Assembly: GCA_016177615.1 (NCBI GenBank)
Contig: JACOUX010000026.1
Location: 1-50,203 of the forward strand
DNA: 50,203 nt
Direction: 5' to 3'
Source of the DNA: Candidatus Woesearchaeota archaeon
GTDB lineage: Archaea > Nanobdellota > Nanobdellia > Woesearchaeales > GW2011-AR4
Every line of letters starts with the position of its first letter. Position 1 is the stretch's first letter. The notes beneath the pieces were generated by a model that was given only the letters and a program-made list of their open reading frames with translations, searched no databases and had not been told where the DNA came from. The position numbers and the translations under genes were made by a program. Below are positions 16,366 through 29,097 of the stretch, piece after piece.

Positions 16366-17586
16366 TCATTGATTTCTTGTAGATTCCAGCAGCATTTCCG
16401 CATTTTTATACGCAAACTTTTCCTGCGCCTCAGGATTCAGCTGCCCGATGAAAGATCTCGAAATTTCTTCAAGCAGGGCGCCAACATCTGCGTCAAAATG
16501 CCAGCCGTATCCCCTGTCAGTGCCCCAGAGATATTTATCAGGATGCTTTTCAATCCTTGGCTTCCATATTTCAATATTAACTTGGAGTATCCTGCCAAAG
16601 CTGCCCTTAAACTCAGAAACGAATTCCTCCTTTTCTGAATCGTAAATGTTGGCTATTGTGTGTTCATTGGGGAGGTCGAACAGATTCGCATCAATTGAGT
16701 AATAGGCGTTTGGATATGCCCCTATTATTTCGTCCACCCATGGCCACATGTTTTCTCCGTGGAAGAGGAACTTGACATTAGGGTTTTCCTTCAGAATTTT
16801 TTCAATGGCCTGCTTCTGATTATTGTCAGGATGAATCATCACAATCAAATTATGCCTGCCTGCAATCTTATAGATTTCAAGCAGTGAAGGATCGTCTGGG
16901 CGTATCCCTTTAAATGACCCCTTGTAGAATGCAATTTCTCCAAATCCTTTAAACATACCCTTGTTTGAATTCAGCACTTCTTCTGCTTCATTCGGCTTTA
17001 AGTCAAGGCCAGAAACGTGGGCTGGCATTAGAAACGGGATTATCCTTCCTTTGTGCTGCCTTTCTATTTCTGGTAGAATCCCGACAGCCTGGCCTTTCAG
17101 CAAGTTTGGCACAACATAAAACCCGAATGCAGAGCTGATTTTTTCCTTGTCAAAAGCGCAGATGATGTCGCCTGCAAAAACTTCCTTTTCAAGAATAGGC
17201 GCGTCCCAGTCAGCCTCGGCGTAAATTGCTTTTGGCACTTCAAACGTGAAAGGCATATGAAGATGCGCATCAATTAATGGGCCGGTATAGTAAGAATCGG
17301 ATGAAAACTGCCTTTGCGTTGGAGTTTTATCACATTCAACTTCCTTTAGTTTGCCAGCGCCGGTTTCAGATTCCCCTCCTAATATCTGCCTGGTTATCTC
17401 TTCAGTTCTTTGCTTTACAATATCATCAGCAATCCTGTCTATTTCTCCTTGAGTTACTCTATCGGTTTGAGTTATCCGTTTAACTTCCCTTTCAGTTATT
17501 TTTTTGACTGAGTAATCAAAGACAAAATAGCCGACAATAAGGACTAGAATAACTGAAACAATAATTATCGGGATAATTTTTTTCAT
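16366..17586 (-). CDS. Membrane-anchored amidohydrolase-family protein
   Basis: 406 residues. One N-terminal membrane helix (residues about 4-23) is followed by a charged coiled region, then an amidohydrolase-2-like TIM barrel beginning near residue 103 with the metal motif IDAHLHMPF. Later His residues in VMIHPDNN and FLFHGENMW and the Asp in YLWGTDRGYGW fit the remaining ligands. The catalytic domain would be outside the cytoplasm. Substrate unknown. It lies 9 bases downstream of the lipoprotein gene, so the two are probably an operon. Confidence 0.75.
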   Translation of the reverse strand: MKKIIPIIIVSVILVLIVGYFVFDYSVKKITEREVKRITQTDRVTQGEIDRIADDIVKQRTEEITRQILGGESETGAGKLKEVECDKTPTQRQFSSDSYYTGPLIDAHLHMPFTFEVPKAIYAEADWDAPILEKEVFAGDIICAFDKEKISSAFGFYVVPNLLKGQAVGILPEIERQHKGRIIPFLMPAHVSGLDLKPNEAEEVLNSNKGMFKGFGEIAFYKGSFKGIRPDDPSLLEIYKIAGRHNLIVMIHPDNNQKQAIEKILKENPNVKFLFHGENMWPWVDEIIGAYPNAYYSIDANLFDLPNEHTIANIYDSEKEEFVSEFKGSFGRILQVNIEIWKPRIEKHPDKYLWGTDRGYGWHFDADVGALLEEISRSFIGQLNPEAQEKFAYKNAEMLLESTRNQ

Positions 17587-19101: not shown

Positions 19102-19169
19102 AAGAAATGTTTATGAAATCTGGATTTTATAAAGCTGTTGGTTGGGAAGGTTTTGGATTTAGATTGTTC

Positions 19170-19453
19170 GTGTAACGTACAGAGCAAGGCGACCTTTGGC
19201 TCGAGGCGAGAAATTTTTTCCTCGAATTTTGAGGCAACCCGCAAAATTCAGAGCTGAAAAAATTTTGAAGCACTCGAGACTTTTTGGAGCGAAGCGAGAA
19301 AAAGTTTGCCTTGCGAGTGTTAGGCGACCGATAGGCGAGTGAGCGTAGCGAACATCGAGTTTTTGAGCTGCTGAAAGTCTAGTTGGTGGCGTAATTTTTG
19401 GTCATAATAGATTACTGCGTTAGCAGAGCAGAATTCTTAGAGAAGGGGGCGTT
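19170..19453. repeat. Left copy of inverted composite element (attC-like end plus shared blocks)
   Basis: This gene-free stretch holds a foldable outer part and an inner part repeated in inverted orientation at 24744-24953. The outer part (19170-19325) runs GTGTAAC, GCAAGGC (19184-19190), a long imperfect stem, GCCTTGC (19308-19314), GTTAGGC (19319-19325). This is the R''-L''...L'-R' order of integron attC sites. Blocks shared with the right copy, in the same order, are AGTTTTTGAGCTGC (19358-19371), GAAAGTC, GTTGGTGGC, TTCTTAGA and GAAGGGGGCGTT (19442-19453). The last block is 10 bases from the stop of the restriction gene. Confidence 0.6.
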
Positions 19454-19463
19454 CATTTTTTAT

Positions 19464-21254
19464 TTATTTAGTAGTATCCAATTGAGTATCTTTCTTGTTT
19501 AATAGGTACTTCAATAAATCTGATTTATTTATAGTGGAAAGTATTTCAGCAAATTCTACGCAAGGTAAAAATATCATCCCAACATTTTCTTGTCTAGCAT
19601 TTAACATTAAATTTTTTTGAAGTTGATGATGAATATCAGGCGCAGAAAAAATGCCGATTACCTGTTTAGTATTATTTTCCTTTTTAGCTTTAGAGATGTG
19701 GTCTGGAACAGAAGAGGCTTCGGCACTGCTCCATTGTGCCCTGATTCCCCTATATGTAGTCAATTCCAAAACAAACAAATAATTACCTATTTCAAAAACT
19801 ATATCAGGATTTCCATCTTTCCCTCCAGGTGCTGGTTCACAAATTCCATACTTTTCTAGTTTACCATACCAAAAGACTTCATCAATAACATCTTTATTTT
19901 TTAAAATGTTAAGTAACTCAAAAAATAGGTACTCTAATCTTCCACCTTTTCTTCTATTATCAATGAAATTCTTAGCTAGTATCTTTTCAATGACTTTTAA
20001 CTTATGATAGTATTGTTTATCAAAACCTTCATAACTATTTGAAAACATTTCTTTAATCTGGTTGGTAAGAATTTCTTCATTAACTACAATCTTCTCTTTA
20101 TTATTTTTAATATTCAACAGGAATTTGGTTTTATCTTTATCGAATTCAACTTTCTGTTTTAGGATCTCTTTTCCTTCATTAGTATCATATACAATAAAAT
20201 CGTATTCTTCATTTCTGAAAACAGGTAATATAATTTGTGGATTTTTATTTGAAATGCCATCACTATATAATAAATTTTTATCTTTATAAACAGTCACTAT
20301 CACGTCTTTTTTTGAGTTTGTTCCTATAATTACGTCGTGTGGAGGATGCATCCTATTTGGATTTGAAAAGTATTCTTTCCATAAAAACCAATCATCTTTA
20401 AAGTCATAAATTTCAATATTTTTAAATGATGCAAGAATCTTTTTAGCCTCATCTTTATTTTTTAATTTTATGGCAGGTAATTTTTGATTATTGGGTTTAT
20501 TTATCTCCATACTTACTCTTTCGCACAATCCTGTAGAATAGCACAAATACATATAGTAACCTGCAGTTGGTGCCTTAACCAGAGTAAGTTGACCTTCTTC
20601 GGTTTTTTCATAAGCACTAATTTCAGCCAGTCTTCTATCTGATGATAGATTACGAAAATTTTTTATCTTTTCTATAACAAGATTTGTTTCATCCTCTTTC
20701 TTTGTATGAAATAAGATATATCCTATTTCTTCTTTGTCAAGATAATCTAACTCCAATAATAATCTTAAAGTCATACGGAAGGGAAAAACTAAAACGTTTT
20801 GACAATCTTTTCTAATTGTCGGATTTGTGATAATCAGTTTAAGCATTTGTTTAGCAAATACTTCTGATATTTCAATTAAGTCCTTATTTGCTTTGTACTC
20901 TGCTAGATTTTTATAATGTTTAACTTTTTCTATATTGTGTTTTCTTATTAGGTCGTACCCTATATCTGTAACCATTATTCTGGAAGGTTTGGAAGATTCA
21001 TCAATATACACAAAGCCTAAATATTTTGGAATATTTGCTAACAAGGTTCTAATTGATTGATGGGTGATTGCCCTACCATCTTCTGTCAATCCAGCTTTTC
21101 CCATTTCACTCCCTAGACTTTCTTGCTTACCACTTGACCAACTTTTTCCTAAAAATCTGTCCCAAGTTAGAACATAAACCATATAGATAGTTTGATGTAC
21201 ACTACCTCTTTTAGGAATATGCCATATTTCTTTTGTTCTTGTTAATTTTGCCAT
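19464..21254 (-). CDS. AlwI-family type II restriction endonuclease
   Basis: 596 residues. The N-terminus (IWHIPKRGSVHQTIYMVYVLT, then RTLLANIPKYLGFVYID) is of the AlwI-like type. The C-terminal nuclease core carries a PD-(D/E)xK variant: PD at 483-484 and Glu497 in VLELTTYRG, with Thr499 where Lys is usual. Such enzymes cut outside a short asymmetric site, which explains the two methyltransferases directly upstream. Its ATG overlaps the preceding stop by one base (TAATG). Strong AAA/TTA/ATA codon bias differs from neighbouring core genes and suggests transfer. Confidence 0.8.
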   Translation of the reverse strand: MAKLTRTKEIWHIPKRGSVHQTIYMVYVLTWDRFLGKSWSSGKQESLGSEMGKAGLTEDGRAITHQSIRTLLANIPKYLGFVYIDESSKPSRIMVTDIGYDLIRKHNIEKVKHYKNLAEYKANKDLIEISEVFAKQMLKLIITNPTIRKDCQNVLVFPFRMTLRLLLELDYLDKEEIGYILFHTKKEDETNLVIEKIKNFRNLSSDRRLAEISAYEKTEEGQLTLVKAPTAGYYMYLCYSTGLCERVSMEINKPNNQKLPAIKLKNKDEAKKILASFKNIEIYDFKDDWFLWKEYFSNPNRMHPPHDVIIGTNSKKDVIVTVYKDKNLLYSDGISNKNPQIILPVFRNEEYDFIVYDTNEGKEILKQKVEFDKDKTKFLLNIKNNKEKIVVNEEILTNQIKEMFSNSYEGFDKQYYHKLKVIEKILAKNFIDNRRKGGRLEYLFFELLNILKNKDVIDEVFWYGKLEKYGICEPAPGGKDGNPDIVFEIGNYLFVLELTTYRGIRAQWSSAEASSVPDHISKAKKENNTKQVIGIFSAPDIHHQLQKNLMLNARQENVGMIFLPCVEFAEILSTINKSDLLKYLLNKKDTQLDTTK

Positions 21255-22501
21255 TATATTTTCACCAAATCAATTACCCAATCTTTTTTAATTAAACCCC
21301 CTCTTCCTTTTCTTGGTATTCTTAAATACCTATTTTTTATTATGTATGAAAATAGATTTTCTAACTGAAAACCTTTAGTTTTTGCTATGTCTATTAATAT
21401 ATTATGGGTATCTACTTTGATATTTCTTATTGTGCTGTCACCAACAACAATTATATAATGTGAATTTGATTTTAATAGTTTATGAACTTGATTAATGTTT
21501 AATTCCATATCCTTAAAAAATTTATAAACCACAAAGGCTCTTTTTTTATCTTTCTCATAAATTTTTGAAATTAAAAAATCTATTTTTTTAGAGTTAGAAT
21601 GTGGTTTTTTATAAATATAATCTTTAATTGGAATTACTTCTGTTCCAACTTGCTTCTTCTTTATTTCAATTATATTTGTATCACCATAAAATCCTAGCCA
21701 AGAATTCTCTAATCTGAGGGACCTCACGTAGTCAAATGCGTTAATGTAGGGCGGGGAAGTTATAGATAAATCAACTTTGTTGGTATATTGCTCTGCTTTA
21801 ATATTTCTAGCGTCATCTCCAATTATTTTAGATTTGCCGATTTTCTGTATATTAATTGAATCCATCTGATTGAAGTAATAATCTAATAAATTATAGAATG
21901 TAGTTTTAACCTTTTGAGGATTTTTCTTAATTCTGGAAGAAACATAAGGTTTAGGAGAAGTATCATCTGCAAAAGAACATTTTCTGATAGAAGAAGCAAA
22001 ACAAACTAATAAAAAATTATAAACCCGTTCATTTATATCTTTAATTTTATCTATATTAGATTTTAATGTTTGGAATTCCTTAATATTTTCTTTTGGAAAC
22101 CAATGTTCAATATTATAAATATCTGGTAATTTATATAATCCCACATTGTTAAAAAGTGAATCTTTTATTCTTGATAAAAAATTTAAGTCGTCCTTTGATA
22201 GCTTTAACGTCTTTGTATTGCATAAAAGCTGACTAAATTTGTCAAAATCAACACCTAAAGCATTACGATTCAACATAACCGCTTCAACCAAAGTTGTACC
22301 AGACCCGGCAAAAGGGTCTAAAACTAAATCTCCTTCTTTAGTATATTTCAAAATAGCCCAGCGAGGTATATTTGGTATAAACTTACAAGGATATTTAAAG
22401 AACCCATGGGTATGCCTATGAATATTATTAGATATTTCTAAAGTCGAATTAAAAGGTACTGATGTAGGGATTTCTTCAACTTGAATAATCTGGGTTCTCA
22501 T
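21254..22501 (-). CDS. DNA methyltransferase (SPPY type), second gene of restriction operon
   Basis: 415 residues. Motif I VLDPFAGSGTTLVEAV lies near 60-75, and motif IV SPPYINAFDYVRS near 250. The order (motif I before SPPY) and Ser in SPPY fit the beta-type amino-methyltransferases, often N4-cytosine. It is a diverged relative of the next gene upstream: both share DPFAGSGTT and SPP(Y)xNxFD. Two methylases are expected for an asymmetric recognition sequence. It overlaps its upstream neighbour by ATGA. Confidence 0.85.
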   Translation of the reverse strand: MRTQIIQVEEIPTSVPFNSTLEISNNIHRHTHGFFKYPCKFIPNIPRWAILKYTKEGDLVLDPFAGSGTTLVEAVMLNRNALGVDFDKFSQLLCNTKTLKLSKDDLNFLSRIKDSLFNNVGLYKLPDIYNIEHWFPKENIKEFQTLKSNIDKIKDINERVYNFLLVCFASSIRKCSFADDTSPKPYVSSRIKKNPQKVKTTFYNLLDYYFNQMDSINIQKIGKSKIIGDDARNIKAEQYTNKVDLSITSPPYINAFDYVRSLRLENSWLGFYGDTNIIEIKKKQVGTEVIPIKDYIYKKPHSNSKKIDFLISKIYEKDKKRAFVVYKFFKDMELNINQVHKLLKSNSHYIIVVGDSTIRNIKVDTHNILIDIAKTKGFQLENLFSYIIKNRYLRIPRKGRGGLIKKDWVIDLVKI

Positions 22502-23781
22502 TTTTGTAGTATTACTATGCTTTCCCTTACGTAATACTTAAAAGACCCTAGCTTTGCATGTTGTTGAGAACTTGCCTCATTTGTTCTTCCAACTATAATT
22601 TCTTTAGTTTTGAACCCTATTTTTTCTCCTATTTCGGCAAGGATTATATCCGTAGGAACAGTTATATTGCCGTAGGAAGAATTGCCAACCACGATAACAC
22701 AATATCCTTTTTCTTTTGTTTTATTAAAAATTTCATTCAAAACAATATACATATCATAAAAATATGTATCCAACATCTTAACTATTCTTTTATCCCATAA
22801 TACTTTTTTAGACAAAACTCTCAGTATTTGCTCAAGTAAATCGGTTCTATGTTCAGAATTAAATTCTTTATTTAAATTAGCATTTAGATTAGATGTTAAA
22901 GCATTTTTTCTCTTACCTTTTAAATCTGCATAACCATTTATAAATTCTCCAATCCATAATTCTATTTTATATACTTCAAAAGGGTCAAAACAATTAGCAT
23001 AAGGGGGGGAAAATATGGAAATATCTATTTCGTTAATATCATATTTCCCTAAATTCAAACAAGAATCATTTATTATTAATGGTTCTGCATTATTAGAAGT
23101 CTTAGCAATTAAATCCAATAATATCTCTTCTCTCTTCTTTTGGAATTCTATAAATGGGTCTAAATCTTTATGTACTCTTTTTCTTTTTAACCCATTACCT
23201 GCTTTTCTATAATAAGAAACAGACTCTAAAATAGATAATAATGTAGCTACTAACAAATCTTTTACTTTCTCATTAGAAACTTTCCCTATAGCTTCTTTTA
23301 ATATTTCAATTTTTTCTAGTTTTTGCTCATCAAATAATTTCTTTATTATTGATAAATCATATTTCGAATAAGAATCTTTCATTTTTTTGTATTCTGGGAT
23401 TTTGAAATTGCTATATTGTTTCAAATCTTCTTCTGAATAATTTCGGGTTTTTACTCTTATCATAAAAGCACTAAACGGATTTATTTCAAATCCAGATGCC
23501 TTAAATCCCAATTGTTTTGAAGTTAGTAAAGTTGTACCAGACCCGGCAAAAGGGTCAAAAACTAATATCTTTTTTTTAGTAAGGAGCCCGAGATGCTTTA
23601 GAATATTCTTAACTAATTTAGGTGAGTATCCTTCTTGATAGTAAAACCATCTATGGATTGGTAATTCCTTAGTTTGAGAGAAATTCACAAGATATTTATA
23701 ACTAAAATTTGAATAGACATTTAGTTTTCTATCTCTTTCCTTGTAGTTTTGAAATAAAGCTGATTGAAAATTACTTTCCAT
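22498..23781 (-). CDS. DNA methyltransferase (SPPY type), first gene of restriction operon
   Basis: 427 residues. Motif I ILVFDPFAGSGTTLLTSKQ is near 72-90, and motif IV IFSPPYANCFDPFEVYK near 256-272. YCVIVVGNSSYGNITVP near the C-terminus matches a similar VVGDST segment in the companion methylase. AGAGGTAAAA precedes ATG 23781. The promoter is the shared element at 23825-23854. Family role: protects one strand or half-site of the AlwI-like enzyme's target. Confidence 0.85.
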   Translation of the reverse strand: MESNFQSALFQNYKERDRKLNVYSNFSYKYLVNFSQTKELPIHRWFYYQEGYSPKLVKNILKHLGLLTKKKILVFDPFAGSGTTLLTSKQLGFKASGFEINPFSAFMIRVKTRNYSEEDLKQYSNFKIPEYKKMKDSYSKYDLSIIKKLFDEQKLEKIEILKEAIGKVSNEKVKDLLVATLLSILESVSYYRKAGNGLKRKRVHKDLDPFIEFQKKREEILLDLIAKTSNNAEPLIINDSCLNLGKYDINEIDISIFSPPYANCFDPFEVYKIELWIGEFINGYADLKGKRKNALTSNLNANLNKEFNSEHRTDLLEQILRVLSKKVLWDKRIVKMLDTYFYDMYIVLNEIFNKTKEKGYCVIVVGNSSYGNITVPTDIILAEIGEKIGFKTKEIIVGRTNEASSQQHAKLGSFKYYVRESIVILQK

Positions 23782-24125: not shown

Positions 24126-24251
24126 ATGAGATTTCAAAAAGCTATAATGAGGATGCATTCTGAAATCTTTTTTAATAAAATACATTCTAAGAAATTTTCC
24201 GACTCATTGAAAAAATGGGAGGGCATGCCGAGATTTGAACTCGGAATCTGA
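24126..24251 (+). CDS. Possible 41-residue ORF running antisense into the tRNA-like sequence
   Basis: A good TTGGAGGTG site sits 9 bases before ATG 24126. The 41-codon frame (MRFQKAIMRMHSEIFFNK...) is basic and ends inside the antisense of the tRNA-like feature. No homology is recognised. The strong ribosome site is the only reason to list it. Confidence 0.22.
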   Translation: MRFQKAIMRMHSEIFFNKIHSKKFSDSLKKWEGMPRFELGI

Positions 24252-24293
24252 AACTTAGTAGGTAACTATTCTTCCAGATTAAACTACATGCCC
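24221..24293 (-). tRNA. tRNA-like sequence with a defective anticodon arm (possible pseudo-tRNA)
   Basis: 73 bases fold as a class I tRNA. The acceptor stem GGGCATG/CATGCCC is perfect. The D arm GTTT-AATCTGGAA-GAAT keeps A14, GG18-19 and A21. The T arm is CCGAG-TTCAAAT-CTCGG. The 17-base anticodon arm GTTAC-CTACTAA-GTTTC has two T-T mismatches in the stem, and by position its anticodon would be ACT. That anticodon is unexpected in a tRNA without a long variable arm. Either it is a decayed copy inside the island, or the arm folds unusually: an alternative ATCTGGAA/TTTCAGAT pairing disrupts the D arm. Confidence 0.6.
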
Positions 24294-24381: not shown

Positions 24382-24519
24382 CTAACTGAAAGCTTTTATC
24401 AACTCTACTGCTGTCGCTTTAACTTCAGGCATAGCCGTCATCACAATAAAAGCGAACAACAAAGCCAACACAAGCACTGCCAATGCAGGCACATATGCTT
24501 TTTTATTGATTTTTTCCAC
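24382..24519 (-). CDS. Small single-span membrane protein
   Basis: 45 residues from GTG 24519, which a GGAG site nearly touches. The sequence starts MEKINKKAYVPALAVLVLAL, continues with a hydrophobic helix to about residue 32, and ends KATAVELIKAFS. A TATA-like ACTTTAAAG lies about 30 bases upstream on the minus strand. A lysine-rich head followed by one helix is typical of small membrane proteins. Function unknown. Confidence 0.4.
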   Translation of the reverse strand: MEKINKKAYVPALAVLVLALLFAFIVMTAMPEVKATAVELIKAFS

Positions 24520-24743: not shown

Positions 24744-24953
24744 AACGCCCCCTTCCCGTTTTAAAGTAACCAAAAATTTCTAAGAACGAAGTGAACCGTA
24801 TAATCTACAGAGATTATGCGAAGCCACCAACGTAAAGGACTTTCGGTTTAACGTTAACAACGGCAGCTCAAAAACTTTGCCTAACACATTTTTTGCGAAG
24901 TTTTGGTGAAAACTTAGGATGAGCATCGGCGAACCGCAAAAAAGCTGTTATGC
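24744..24953. repeat. Right copy of inverted composite element (attC-like end plus shared blocks)
   Basis: This is the inverted counterpart of 19170-19453. On the plus strand it has AACGCCCCCTTC (24744-24755), the complements of TTCTTAGA, GTTGGTGGC and GAAAGTC, then GCAGCTCAAAAACT (24863-24876). It ends in a 75-base attC-like unit: GCCTAAC (24879-24885), TTTTTTGCG paired with CGCAAAAAA, an inner AAGTTTT-GGTG-AAAACTT hairpin, and GTTATGC (24947-24953). The attC-like ends of both copies face outward, enclosing the restriction operon, tRNA-like sequence and small ORFs. vapC ends 23 bases further on. Confidence 0.6.
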
Positions 24954-24975
24954 GATCAATCTCAAAACAATCTCG

Positions 24976-25437
24976 TTAACCTCTTTCGGAGTCGCCTTCT
25001 TTTCCTTCATAAAATTTGGCATTCAGTTCCTTCGGAGTAAAAACCTTGCCTTTAAGCTCAGTAATATGCTCGAAATGATGCTTATTCAACGTCAGCAGGT
25101 AATTTCCGCCTAAAACATTAAATGTTGCTGCAATAACCACGTCTGGAAATTCTATAATCTTGCCCTTTTTTATAAGAAAGGCCAAATACTCTGCTGTTTT
25201 TTCTGCAACATCAGAGTCCATATCAACCCAAAGAAACTGAGATAGTACTCTTTTTGCCTCATTTGACGCTTTTTCGTAATCCTCTCTTAAATGGCACCCT
25301 GCAAGAATTTCGGATAATGTAACAATACTTATGCTTAGGTCACTATTTCTTTCAACAAGCCCCTTAATCAACTCTAACACTAATTTGTTTTTTCTTTCAA
25401 GTTCAACTACTACAGATGTGTCAACAACAACTTTCAC
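24976..25437 (-). CDS. vapC: VapC-type PIN toxin
   Basis: 153 residues from GTG 25437, overlapping the antitoxin stop by one base. PIN acidic residues are Asp6 (VVDTSVVV), Glu43 (TLSEILAG) and Asp99 (EFPDVVIAAT), and the GGNYLLTLNKHHF segment is typical. Family role: Mg-dependent RNase toxin, often cutting tRNA or rRNA. It stands just outside the right composite repeat of the restriction island. Confidence 0.88.
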   Translation of the reverse strand: MKVVVDTSVVVELERKNKLVLELIKGLVERNSDLSISIVTLSEILAGCHLREDYEKASNEAKRVLSQFLWVDMDSDVAEKTAEYLAFLIKKGKIIEFPDVVIAATFNVLGGNYLLTLNKHHFEHITELKGKVFTPKELNAKFYEGKEGDSERG

Positions 25438-25685
25438 TATATAACACCCAGCCTTTTTAATCTTTCTTTTTCATCTGTTCTTGCTTTCTTTAGAATAGTG
25501 CCAAAGTTAGAAGGCAAAAAGCTCTCAAACCTGTCAAAAACATCAGGATTTTTCTTGCTGATTAGTATAGTATCCTTAAGCGTATTGATTATCACTCTGT
25601 CTCCTTCTCGTATGTTAGTTTTTTCTCTTTCAGCCTTAGTAAGTGTTATCTGGCTTCCCCTGGTTACAACAATTTCTCTTGCCAT
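25437..25685 (-). CDS. vapB: AbrB/MazE-type antitoxin of VapC
   Basis: 82 residues. The swapped-hairpin AbrB N-terminus (VVTRGSQITLTKAEREKTN, then IREGDRVIINTL) is clear. The C-terminal half (NPDVFDRFESFLPSNFGTIL) would wrap the toxin. A TATA-like ATTTATAAAT (about 25705-25716) lies 25 bases before the ATG, so a leaderless start is likely. A palindrome directly upstream suggests autorepression. Confidence 0.88.
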   Translation of the reverse strand: MAREIVVTRGSQITLTKAEREKTNIREGDRVIINTLKDTILISKKNPDVFDRFESFLPSNFGTILKKARTDEKERLKRLGVI

Positions 25686-25881: not shown

Positions 25882-27294
25882 CTATTTTATCATTCTCAAA
25901 ACAATCTCATTTACCTCTTTCGGAGCCGCTTTGCCCTTGGTTTTCTGCATAATTTTACCCACAATGAAATTCAGCGCCTTTGCCTCTCCTTTTTTATAAT
26001 CTTCAACTGCCTTGGGATTTTCTTCAATTGCTTCTTTGCAGTATTTTTCCAGCTCGGAAGCATCGGAAACTGCCCCTAATTTTTCTTTTTTCACGTATTC
26101 CTTAACGTCAAAGGGCTTTTCTACCAGCTTTTCGAGTATTTTTGATGCCACATTATCAGTTATTTTCCTGCTTTCGACCAGCCTGAGCAGCTGAATCATG
26201 TGCTTTTCCGTAATTTCAGCTTCATGCAGCTCTTTTTTGCTGTAATTCAAGACCCTCAATAATTCCCTTCTCAGCCATTTTGCTGCCAATACCGGGTCTA
26301 TTTCCTCGGCGACTTTCTCAAACATTGCGGCAAGAAATTTGTCGGCAGCTATTATTTCTGCATCATCCTTTTTGACTCCCATCCCGACAAATTTCTTGAG
26401 CTTATCCTGTGCGAGCTCAGGCATGTGCCTCTTTATCTCTTTAAGCCAGTTTTCGCTTATATCAATGGCTGTTAAATCGGCGTCAATAATGTAGCCATAA
26501 TCCTCTTCAGTTTCTTTCTTCCTTAAGGAAAATGTTATTCCCCTTTCTGAATCCCATGACCTTGTTTCCTGATGTATTGCCTTCCCTGCCCTGACTTCCT
26601 GCTTTTGCCTGCTGATCTCGTAAGACAACGCCCTTTCTATCTCTTTAAATCCCGTTATATTCTTGATTTCCACTCTTGTATAGCCGCTTTCCCTGATTGA
26701 TATATTGGCATCTGCTTTTATTATGCCGCTGTTTATGTCAAAAATCTCAAGGTAATTTAGCACTGTAATCAGCTGCTTCATAAAATTCCTTGCCTCATCA
26801 GCGCTTTCCAGATCCGGCTCTGTGACTATTTCAGCAAGAGGGTTGCCGCTTCTGTTGTAGTCAACTAATACGTACTGGCTGTCTTTCAGCCCTGCTGGAT
26901 GCACTAATGATGCCGGGTCCTCTTCCATATGAACCCTGGTAATTCCAATCTCTTTTCCATCCTTTAATCTCAATTTTCCATTTCTGCCAAGCGGAATTTC
27001 ATACTGCGATATTTGGTAGTTCTTCGCCATATCAGGATAGAAATACGATTTTCTTGAGAAAATCAGCTCAGGAGAGATTTCGCAATTTAATGCAAGGCAT
27101 AATTTTAATGCAAACTCGACGGCTTTTTTGTTCAGCACTGGCTTTGAGCCAGGCATTCCAAGGCAAATTTCGCACGTTCTTGAATTTGGCTCCTCGCTTC
27201 CTTTAGTGGGGCAGCCGCAGAACAGCTTTGTTTTTGCGGATAGCTCAGCGTGGCATTCAATTCCAATAACGACGTCGCTTGTGAAGGGTTTCAT
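25882..27294 (-). CDS. gatB: Aspartyl/glutamyl-tRNA amidotransferase subunit B
   Basis: 470 residues, the usual GatB length. It opens with VVIGIECHAELSAKTKLFCG. Zinc ligands Cys26, Cys28, Cys41 and Cys44 are present, and YFYPDMAKNYQISQYEIPLG and the MEEDPASLVH kinase-type motifs follow. The C-terminal helical YqeY-like tail (KGEAKALNFIVGKIMQKTKG) binds tRNA. GatB activates Asp-tRNA(Asn) or Glu-tRNA(Gln) by phosphorylation before amidation. It lies downstream of gatC and gatA, separated from them by the MNT-HEPN cassette. Confidence 0.95.
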   Translation of the reverse strand: MKPFTSDVVIGIECHAELSAKTKLFCGCPTKGSEEPNSRTCEICLGMPGSKPVLNKKAVEFALKLCLALNCEISPELIFSRKSYFYPDMAKNYQISQYEIPLGRNGKLRLKDGKEIGITRVHMEEDPASLVHPAGLKDSQYVLVDYNRSGNPLAEIVTEPDLESADEARNFMKQLITVLNYLEIFDINSGIIKADANISIRESGYTRVEIKNITGFKEIERALSYEISRQKQEVRAGKAIHQETRSWDSERGITFSLRKKETEEDYGYIIDADLTAIDISENWLKEIKRHMPELAQDKLKKFVGMGVKKDDAEIIAADKFLAAMFEKVAEEIDPVLAAKWLRRELLRVLNYSKKELHEAEITEKHMIQLLRLVESRKITDNVASKILEKLVEKPFDVKEYVKKEKLGAVSDASELEKYCKEAIEENPKAVEDYKKGEAKALNFIVGKIMQKTKGKAAPKEVNEIVLRMIK

Positions 27295-27297
27295 TTT

Positions 27298-27630
27298 CTA
27301 TTTCAATTTCCCCATTTTCGCATCTTTTATCAGCTTAAATGCCCCTTCTTGAACCAGCATTCCCCTAATAATTGGATAAAGTTTTTGAGACTTAGAAATC
27401 AATTCTGATTCAGATATGTTTGGCATTCTTTTTTTGATAAAATCAAACAGTGAAGTTAGGATAGCGCCCTGTATATAGCCATATTCTCCTTCGAATTCTG
27501 AGTATCTTTTCAAAAACAATTCAAAATATTCATTGCTTATTCTATAATCTGTTATTTCCTGAACTACATTAAGCCGATGAAGTTCTTTTTGCATTTCAAT
27601 TATTTTTTCTTGAGTTAATCTGCCCTTCAT
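27298..27630 (-). CDS. Helical protein of unknown function, third gene of MNT-HEPN cassette
   Basis: 110 residues, all helical, not recognised (starts MKGRLTQEKIIEMQKELHRL). It overlaps the HEPN gene by ATGA and ends 3 bases before gatB's start codon. Translational coupling to the HEPN gene suggests it belongs to the cassette rather than to gatB. Confidence 0.55.
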   Translation of the reverse strand: MKGRLTQEKIIEMQKELHRLNVVQEITDYRISNEYFELFLKRYSEFEGEYGYIQGAILTSLFDFIKKRMPNISESELISKSQKLYPIIRGMLVQEGAFKLIKDAKMGKLK

Positions 27631-28274
27631 TTTTTGTAATGCTCCTCATTAAAACAATCATCACACATGCCACTATGCCAGTCTTTATTATGCGCTGAAA
27701 TTTTTTTATTGCACTTTCTGCAGTTATAATTCATTTCCTCGTCATGCTTCATATGGAAAGTCCTCATTTTTTCCTTCATTTCGGCAGAGCTCATGGTTTC
27801 AGCAAAATATCCTTCTTCCCATAAGCCATCATCATTGCTTTCAGCCGTGCTTTCCTTCATCTTTATTTCTCTTAGTTTTTCATCAATGCCATATTTCTTA
27901 GTGATAATTTCCAGCATTTGCTTAATTTTGGTTAAATAATTATTTAGGGTCTCCTTGTCCAGTTTTGCGATGTATGACACATGGCCATAATCCGCCTGCA
28001 GCCTCATATCGTAAAGATCCCTTAGCAATCCATAAGTATCTATTTCAAGCTCTAACAGCTTAGATAGTTCCCATATGTTTTTATGGCTTTTGGAAACGGG
28101 CTTTGAATTAAGCTTTAATGCAGCCACTATTGCACTTTCTGCTGTGAAATATGCCCTGTTGGCCGCTGTCTTGAAGTCATCGAGCTTGAAATTCGCTTCT
28201 GCAGCCTTTAAGAAGTCTTTTGACCTGCTCCAGTCCTCTTTCCAGTCATACAAATATTTTTTGTCCGATTCCAT
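27627..28274 (-). CDS. HEPN-domain protein with C-terminal zinc ribbon (probable toxin)
   Basis: 215 residues. Residues 1-130 form a HEPN four-helix bundle: FLKAAEANFKLDDFKTAANR, AYFTAESAIVAALKL, and the active motif MRLQADYGHVSY. The last reads R-x6-H followed by Tyr, close to the HepT R-x4-H-x-Y pattern. Residues about 184-208 (CRKCNKKISAHNKDWHSGMC, then DDC) make a zinc ribbon not found in ordinary HepT. Family role: RNase toxin silenced by a cognate nucleotidyltransferase, here the overlapping upstream gene. Confidence 0.75.
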   Translation of the reverse strand: MESDKKYLYDWKEDWSRSKDFLKAAEANFKLDDFKTAANRAYFTAESAIVAALKLNSKPVSKSHKNIWELSKLLELEIDTYGLLRDLYDMRLQADYGHVSYIAKLDKETLNNYLTKIKQMLEIITKKYGIDEKLREIKMKESTAESNDDGLWEEGYFAETMSSAEMKEKMRTFHMKHDEEMNYNCRKCNKKISAHNKDWHSGMCDDCFNEEHYKK

Positions 28275-29097
28275 TTGCTATTTTCTTCATGATATTCAGT
28301 TTTTTAACATTGTCTAATTTATTGAAATTTTTTATTTTGCTCATATAGTCATTTTCAAACTCTTTAATGGCATCTGCTTTTTCTACATTTATTTTATCCT
28401 GCAGCCAGCAATTGCAGTATGCGAGGTTAGTTGCCAGCCTCTGAAATAACTGACCTGTCAATTCGGCATCGCTTATGTTGTTTATTAAAGAGTTTATGTC
28501 ATATAGCGCTTCTGTATACTGAAGCTTTAATCTTAAGGATTTATCGGCTTTTCTTATTAAATTTATAAAACAGCTTTTATTATAAATAATTAATTTTTGT
28601 ATTATCTCATAAGGGTCAGCCTCTATGGAAAAATGGATATTTATTGGAATATCACATACATTCTCTACTAACTTCCTTATTCCGTTTAGCTTCTCTTGTT
28701 TTTCCGGAGTGTCGCATACAATGAGCAGATCTATATCATTTGGGCTTTTTGAAGATAGGGCAGAGCCAAACAAGAATATAGCATTGATATGTCTATATGC
28801 TAAATATGAAAATAGATTTATCTCAAATTGAATCTCTTTATTTATCTCTTTGAGACCAAATGAATCCAAAAAAGACTTAAAATTGACGGCAGCATCATTT
28901 AGAAGTAATTTTACAGATTTTTGCTTACCAATTAATTCTACGCTGATAAGATTATTTTTCTTCAGCCATTTTATAGCGTCGAAACCTGAAGTTCTGCCTA
29001 CTTTAGCTTCTTTTATTATTTCTTCTATTATGAATTCTTTTGGGGAATTCTTTACCAGAATTTCATAAATCTTTAAAATACTTTTTTGATACTTCAT
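28246..29097 (-). CDS. Winged-helix / MNT nucleotidyltransferase fusion (probable antitoxin)
   Basis: 283 residues. An N-terminal winged helix (EFIIEEIIKEAKVGRTSGFD, then AIKWLKKNNLIS) is joined to a minimal nucleotidyltransferase with FLFGSALSSKSPNDIDLLIV near 110-129, giving the GS...DxD metal site. MNT antitoxins modify the Tyr of HEPN partners with AMP. The added DNA-binding domain suggests it represses its own promoter, which holds two palindromes. It overlaps the HEPN gene by 29 bases. Confidence 0.78.
   Translation of the reverse strand: MKYQKSILKIYEILVKNSPKEFIIEEIIKEAKVGRTSGFDAIKWLKKNNLISVELIGKQKSVKLLLNDAAVNFKSFLDSFGLKEINKEIQFEINLFSYLAYRHINAIFLFGSALSSKSPNDIDLLIVCDTPEKQEKLNGIRKLVENVCDIPINIHFSIEADPYEIIQKLIIYNKSCFINLIRKADKSLRLKLQYTEALYDINSLINNISDAELTGQLFQRLATNLAYCNCWLQDKINVEKADAIKEFENDYMSKIKNFNKLDNVKKLNIMKKIANGIGQKIFV

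Follow-up and report, generated by a model that had tools for sequence, protein, structure and literature searches.

A tRNA-like gene with a broken anticodon arm in a restriction-modification island of a Woesearchaeota archaeon, most likely a decaying passenger

tRNA pseudogenes are a known category, in which a tRNA is still recognizable and carries damage that should block decoding. The same description fits a 74-nt tRNA-like gene in a 50,203-nt stretch of DNA (the window, contig JACOUX010000026.1) of a Candidatus Woesearchaeota archaeon, but here only the anticodon arm is damaged and no near-identical parent was found in the genome. tRNA-Arg(UCU/CCU) of the same phylum shares A20, C35, U36, a short variable loop and the loop CUNCUAA with this gene, whereas the latter has A34, two U.U mismatches in the anticodon stem, a discriminator U found in only one of 11 Arg relatives (L140), and a body that is not specially Arg-like. 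Virus-encoded tRNAs with altered anticodon loops, described in the available part of PMC10264068, would likewise be foreign tRNAs with a changed anticodon loop, and here too a PIN-type gene lies nearby. In contrast to those tRNAs, this gene is not in a virus, its stem itself is broken, and no matching copy was found among phages, plasmids and viral contigs (three patterns). The tRNA-like domain of tmRNA, as well as the D-armless mitochondrial tRNAs (in the available part of PMC7609411), resemble the fold predicted for this gene, in which a single long arm accompanies the acceptor and T arms. They differ in that the D-loop GG and other cloverleaf marks are kept here, the only Rfam match is tRNA, and the fold is a prediction. 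The gene is most likely a decaying passenger and not a new kind of RNA.

ARAGORN called a tRNA(ACT) at 24218-24293 on the minus strand. cmscan against Rfam placed a tRNA match (RF00005) at 24220-24293 on the same strand with 52.5 bits (window-wide E=1.6e-8), above the gathering cut-off of 29 bits, so that the gene belongs to the tRNA model. The similarity of 24220-24293 to tRNA is far beyond chance. No other Rfam match exceeded its cut-off in the whole window, and the tRNA was the sole match between 23780 and 24960 at E up to 1. The parts of the gene are as follows.

24220-24293, minus strand: tRNA-like gene of 74 nt, discriminator U included (ARAGORN and cmscan)
24251-24265, minus strand: stretch of the anticodon arm bounded by its outer mismatch, with adjacent U.U at 24265/24251 and 24264/24252 (cmscan, alignment)
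24257-24259, minus strand: implied anticodon ACU (24259-24257) within the loop CUACUAA (ARAGORN)
24245-24280, minus strand: predicted alternative hairpin, AAUCUGGAA (24280-24272) with UUUCAGAUU (24253-24245) and a nested UAGU/ACUA (minimum-energy fold)

The acceptor (7/7), D (4/4, two of them G-U) and T (5/5) stems are completely paired, as a preliminary description made from the letters had stated; its span of 24221-24293 captured the gene and missed the discriminator base at 24220. The anticodon stem reads G-C, U.U, U.U, A-U, C-G, giving three of five pairs, and cmscan flagged all four mismatched residues. Both the two T-T mismatches and the implied anticodon ACT of that description are borne out, and the covariance model, which could have overturned it, kept the mismatched stem and ACU within a tRNA match. 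CCCA directly follows the discriminator U, so there is no in-register CCA. An intron or split-tRNA reading was rejected by reasoning, since the anticodon arm is already of canonical length and any removal would shorten it.

Serine tRNAs carry a long variable arm. The variable loop of this gene is 5 nt and the long arm of class II is lacking, indicating that it is not a serine tRNA and that the Ser label derives only from the anticodon. We built a single-sequence covariance model (R1) from this tRNA and ran it on 371 genomes of the phylum, including its own. The self score was 108.5 bits and the best other match an Arg(CCU) at 73.6 bits; matches at E up to 1e-9 occurred in 278 genomes, as expected of any tRNA. 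We compared 29 relatives, one per genome and all near the top of the R1 match list, and ARAGORN typed them as 11 Arg (5 CCU, 6 UCU), 8 Lys, 5 Ile, 2 Ala, 2 Trp and 1 Gly, a list biased toward NCU tRNAs because R1 includes the anticodon arm. Without that arm, the closest single bodies were Trp (45/57), then Ile and Ala (44/57), with Arg at 36-41/57.

In the 30-tRNA alignment, inspected by eye, A20 was present in the tRNA-like gene, in 11/11 Arg relatives and in 1/18 others, and the gene carries C35 and U36 as well. The arginine set given in the available part of PMC9976931 consists of A20, C35 and U/C36 with A/G73. The discriminator of this gene is U (24220) and not A/G; that text does not establish the A/G73 rule for the phylum, and 1/11 Arg relatives here (L140) also has U. 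On these sequence marks we assign the gene, with moderate confidence, to the Arg (NCU) type.

Our searches encountered the anticodon ACU only rarely. A class I pattern with the loop CUACUAA matched 18 stretches in 84,980 species genomes, five of which ARAGORN accepts as tRNA(ACU), and 5/5 of these come from bacterial records. In viral contigs, none of the 120 matches listed for a loose ACU pattern was a tRNA(ACU), one being called another tRNA, and 22 of the 120 matches listed for a UCU pattern were Arg(UCU), with 16 called other tRNAs.

We found that the cloverleaf as drawn has -14.8 kcal/mol against -27.1 kcal/mol for the best fold, a gap of 12.3 kcal/mol compared with 0-6.3 kcal/mol in 29/29 control relatives, under energy models that leave out modified bases and tertiary contacts. 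The predicted probability of the D-stem and anticodon-stem pairs is 0.0; the acceptor stem, the T stem and a nine-pair helix dominate. Judged by the modelled fold and the broken stem, normal folding and decoding seem out of reach for this gene.

Upstream, a TATA-like box scored on the general TATA consensus reaches 4/8 matches (-40 to -30), while at least 6/8 are found in 10/13 tRNA calls of the same genome and in 11% of random window stretches. The missing host-type box is suggestive only, since 3/13 of the genome's own tRNA calls also stay below 6/8. A scan for bacterial-type promoters and terminators revealed no excess over shuffles. Beyond the 3' end comes a T6 run, which might act as an archaeal terminator. 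The gene has 42% GC compared with 50-62% in the 14 ARAGORN tRNAs of its genome.

These observations bear on the possibility of an odd but working tRNA, expressed and charged, probably with arginine, and reading AGU or AGN despite a weak anticodon stem. A20, C35 and U36, the intact acceptor and T arms and the T6 run agree with such a tRNA, and broken anticodon stems exist, for example in tRNA-Pyl of seventh-order methanogens (in the available part of PMC7609411). ACU class I tRNAs accepted by ARAGORN also occur in genome contigs (5/18 pattern stretches). However, five cases in 84,980 species genomes make a small number, and the viral matches listed held none (0/120). The discriminator U departs from the A/G73 of the arginine set in PMC9976931, as far as the available text goes, yet the Arg relative L140 departs in the same way. 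The cloverleaf gap of 12.3 kcal/mol and the lack of a host-type promoter speak against it further, and by reasoning such a tRNA would place Arg at Ser codons. We consider a working tRNA unlikely.

Downstream of the tRNA-like gene and on the same strand lies a type II restriction-modification (R-M) operon, and inverted, incomplete copies of a repeat dispersed in the same genome bound the R-M/tRNA stretch. The features of this island are listed below.

22498-23781, minus strand: type II DNA methyltransferase M1 (N6_N4_Mtase, Pfam)
21254-22501, minus strand: type II DNA methyltransferase M2 (N6_N4_Mtase, Pfam)
19464-21254, minus strand: type II restriction enzyme (PDLC03422, E=5e-125; no Pfam match)
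24382-24519, minus strand: hydrophobic ORF of 45 aa (MEKINKKAYVPALAVLVLALLFAFIVMT...), situated between tRNA and right-hand repeat; looks pilin-like on inspection
19128-19453, no strand: left island flank, hairpin part and arm of the dispersed repeat (19300-19460 by search, the rest by eye on the alignment)
24744-24887, no strand: right island flank, the other repeat arm, inverted with respect to the left (search, alignment)

In another genome of the genus (G003), genes for Mre11, an amidohydrolase, an M23-type protein and gatB are consecutive, and the points that correspond to window positions 19103 and 25896 are only 57 nt apart. Relative to G003, the tRNA, the R-M genes and a PIN gene pair are all extra. 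The R-M block has 28% GC, the stretches flanking the tRNA 30% and 36%, and the rest of the window 38%. Relatives of M1 at E up to 1e-20 were found in 4/351 other genomes of the order, and no R-M relative was confirmed in viral contigs.

The dispersed repeat is about 125 nt long, with a long hairpin attached in some copies, and occurs in 9/20 genomes of the genus including its own (8/19 others). Copies lie at 19128-19453 and 24744-24887 of the window, in contigs C21 and C41 of the same genome (G000), at L428-L435, and at 463-661 of L113. By eye, methyltransferase, PIN, HNH and Bro-like genes can be recognized among the neighbours of the repeat, and in G013 a copy adjoins a methyltransferase ORF near gatB. 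The labels antitoxin, Bro, HNH and some of the PIN labels given to neighbours were assigned by eye. The repeat ends resemble integron core sites (GCCTAAC/GTTAGGC). An integron reading of the flanking repeats was tried and rejected, as TIGR02249 matched only below cut-off in the genome (two ORFs of 272 and 281 aa). Integron cassettes without an integrase are known, according to the available part of PMC9668308.

Searches for the origin of the gene gave no full-length source. The preliminary description had suggested looking for a full-length parent; no such parent appeared in the gene's own genome, where a DNA search (E up to 1) returned only the gene itself and a 19-nt T-arm match. Among the stretches of that genome submitted to R1, the next-best tRNA was a Lys(CUU) with 49.4 bits against the self score of 108.5 bits. 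The known tRNA set of the genome is incomplete, with 15 matches over the Rfam cut-off in 1.54 Mb including that of the window, so that a divergent, intron-bearing parent could be missed. Besides the tRNA of the window, only 14 tRNAs of the genome pass this cut-off, and 8/14 of its ARAGORN tRNA calls (G000, L029-L043) contain short introns (13-38 nt) located in the anticodon loop or close to it. Such intron-bearing tRNAs, together with the gene content, point to an archaeal affinity. No full-length relative was found by DNA search among the 19 other genomes of the genus (20 including its own); the longest weak match there was 59 nt at 72% identity (E=0.16), a Thr(CGU) tRNA by ARAGORN. The 351 other genomes of the order (352 including its own) also held no full-length relative, the listed matches being at most 42 nt, and ARAGORN called no tRNA at the D-arm matches in G127 and G223.

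After the working tRNA, the next explanation in standing is an integration scar, in which the tRNA would mark the recombination of the element into a tRNA gene. The mobile-type boundaries of the island are in keeping with such an event. The defining feature, a second partial copy of the tRNA, is missing, which disfavours this explanation: a single 12-mer of the gene recurs elsewhere in the window, beyond the island at position 17363, and no exact copy of at least 12 nt stands at the island edges, which match the dispersed repeat instead. Moreover, ARAGORN found no tRNA in a no-intron scan of the equivalent G003 site, no integrase was present among the 10 window proteins scanned with Pfam (a subset of the window genes), and the best other match in the genome is the 19-nt T arm. 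The scar offered as an option in the preliminary description is therefore quite unlikely.

The neighbourhood also contains putative toxin genes. Two 44-nt copies of the gatB 3' end, 89% identical, lie at 24955-24998 and 25889-25932. Between them is a VapBC-like pair, with an antitoxin at 25437-25685 (by eye) and a PIN gene at 24976-25437 (Pfam), the end of which overlaps one of the copies. This arrangement looks like a separate insertion of the PIN/antitoxin pair at the gatB tail that brought a replacement tail with it. A similar second gatB tail is found in G011 (L094). Further on, between gatB and gatA (27627-29097), adjacent HEPN and nucleotidyltransferase-like proteins resemble a HEPN/MNT toxin-antitoxin pair, with nucleotidyltransferase matches just below the Pfam cut-offs.

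It is improbable to a similar degree that the locus makes a tRNA mimic, with tRNA ends and one long middle hairpin. Such an RNA would have a decoy or regulatory role, aimed for instance at tRNA-cutting toxins or at the R-M operon downstream of it. The minimum-energy fold keeps the acceptor and T arms and forms a hairpin of nine plus four pairs in place of the D and anticodon arms. A comparison with 3000 shuffled middles between fixed ends gave p=0.039 for the energy of the middle, p=0.062 for that of the complete fold and p=0.08 for helix length, values that are borderline and unadjusted. The z of the middle (-2.28) is the lowest among 30 tRNAs (controls -2.09 to 0.97), and its longest helix has 9 pairs compared with 5-8 in the controls. 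This borderline hairpin speaks against a normal tRNA but falls short of showing a selected hairpin. Damage limited to the anticodon arm and the PIN and HEPN genes in the window (Pfam) would suit a mimic, and phage tRNAs with changed anticodon loops have been proposed to resist VapC and PrrC (in the available part of PMC10264068).

Besides the borderline p-values, further points weigh against a mimic. It has no relatives in which covariation could be followed, the PIN gene with its putative antitoxin seems to stem from an insertion of its own at the gatB tail, and ARAGORN called no tRNA in stretches from the four genomes with R-M relatives (scanned for intronless tRNAs; two of these stretches span just 3.3 and 4.3 kb). 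The decoy option of the preliminary description has the PIN/HEPN neighbourhood and the borderline hairpin as its basis. Slightly less probable again is the fuller claim that the locus would encode a selected mimic which travels with the R-M operon and baits or regulates enzymes that process or cut tRNA. An assembly or sequencing error, conceivable in a 67-contig draft, is very unlikely to have made the mismatches and the anticodon. By reasoning, random error would hardly place three independent changes in a single arm of 17 nt and leave every pair elsewhere unbroken.

Taken together, the tRNA-like gene is probably a degenerate, horizontally acquired tRNA of the Arg (NCU) type, a passenger in a mobile R-M island. 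The tRNA would have arrived with or alongside the R-M genes, and substitutions in its anticodon arm would then have abolished its function. It would not be under a host-type tRNA promoter and would probably take no part in decoding. The three options of the preliminary description are narrowed in this way: the decayed tRNA stands, on the odd anticodon, the broken anticodon stem, the disfavoured cloverleaf and the missing host-type promoter, and the scar does not.

Some findings sit less easily with simple decay. Each of the 16 pairs beyond the anticodon stem is preserved, which decay by itself need not produce, and by our own arithmetic the chance that two broken pairs both hit the anticodon stem is 10/210 (~0.05). 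For this reason we keep a small share of belief for a mimic and a somewhat larger, still small one for an odd working tRNA. The T6 run, a body outside the anticodon arm that is nearer to Trp, Ile and Ala than to Arg, and the borderline hairpin also weigh against the main explanation as a whole.

Degenerate tRNAs in mobile islands are expected, and a passenger is accordingly of little weight in itself. If the gene were a mimic after all, it would add a defence-linked tRNA-like RNA. The finding calls for caution in annotation, as the automatic label 'tRNA-Ser(ACT)' probably misstates the amino acid as well as the implied function.
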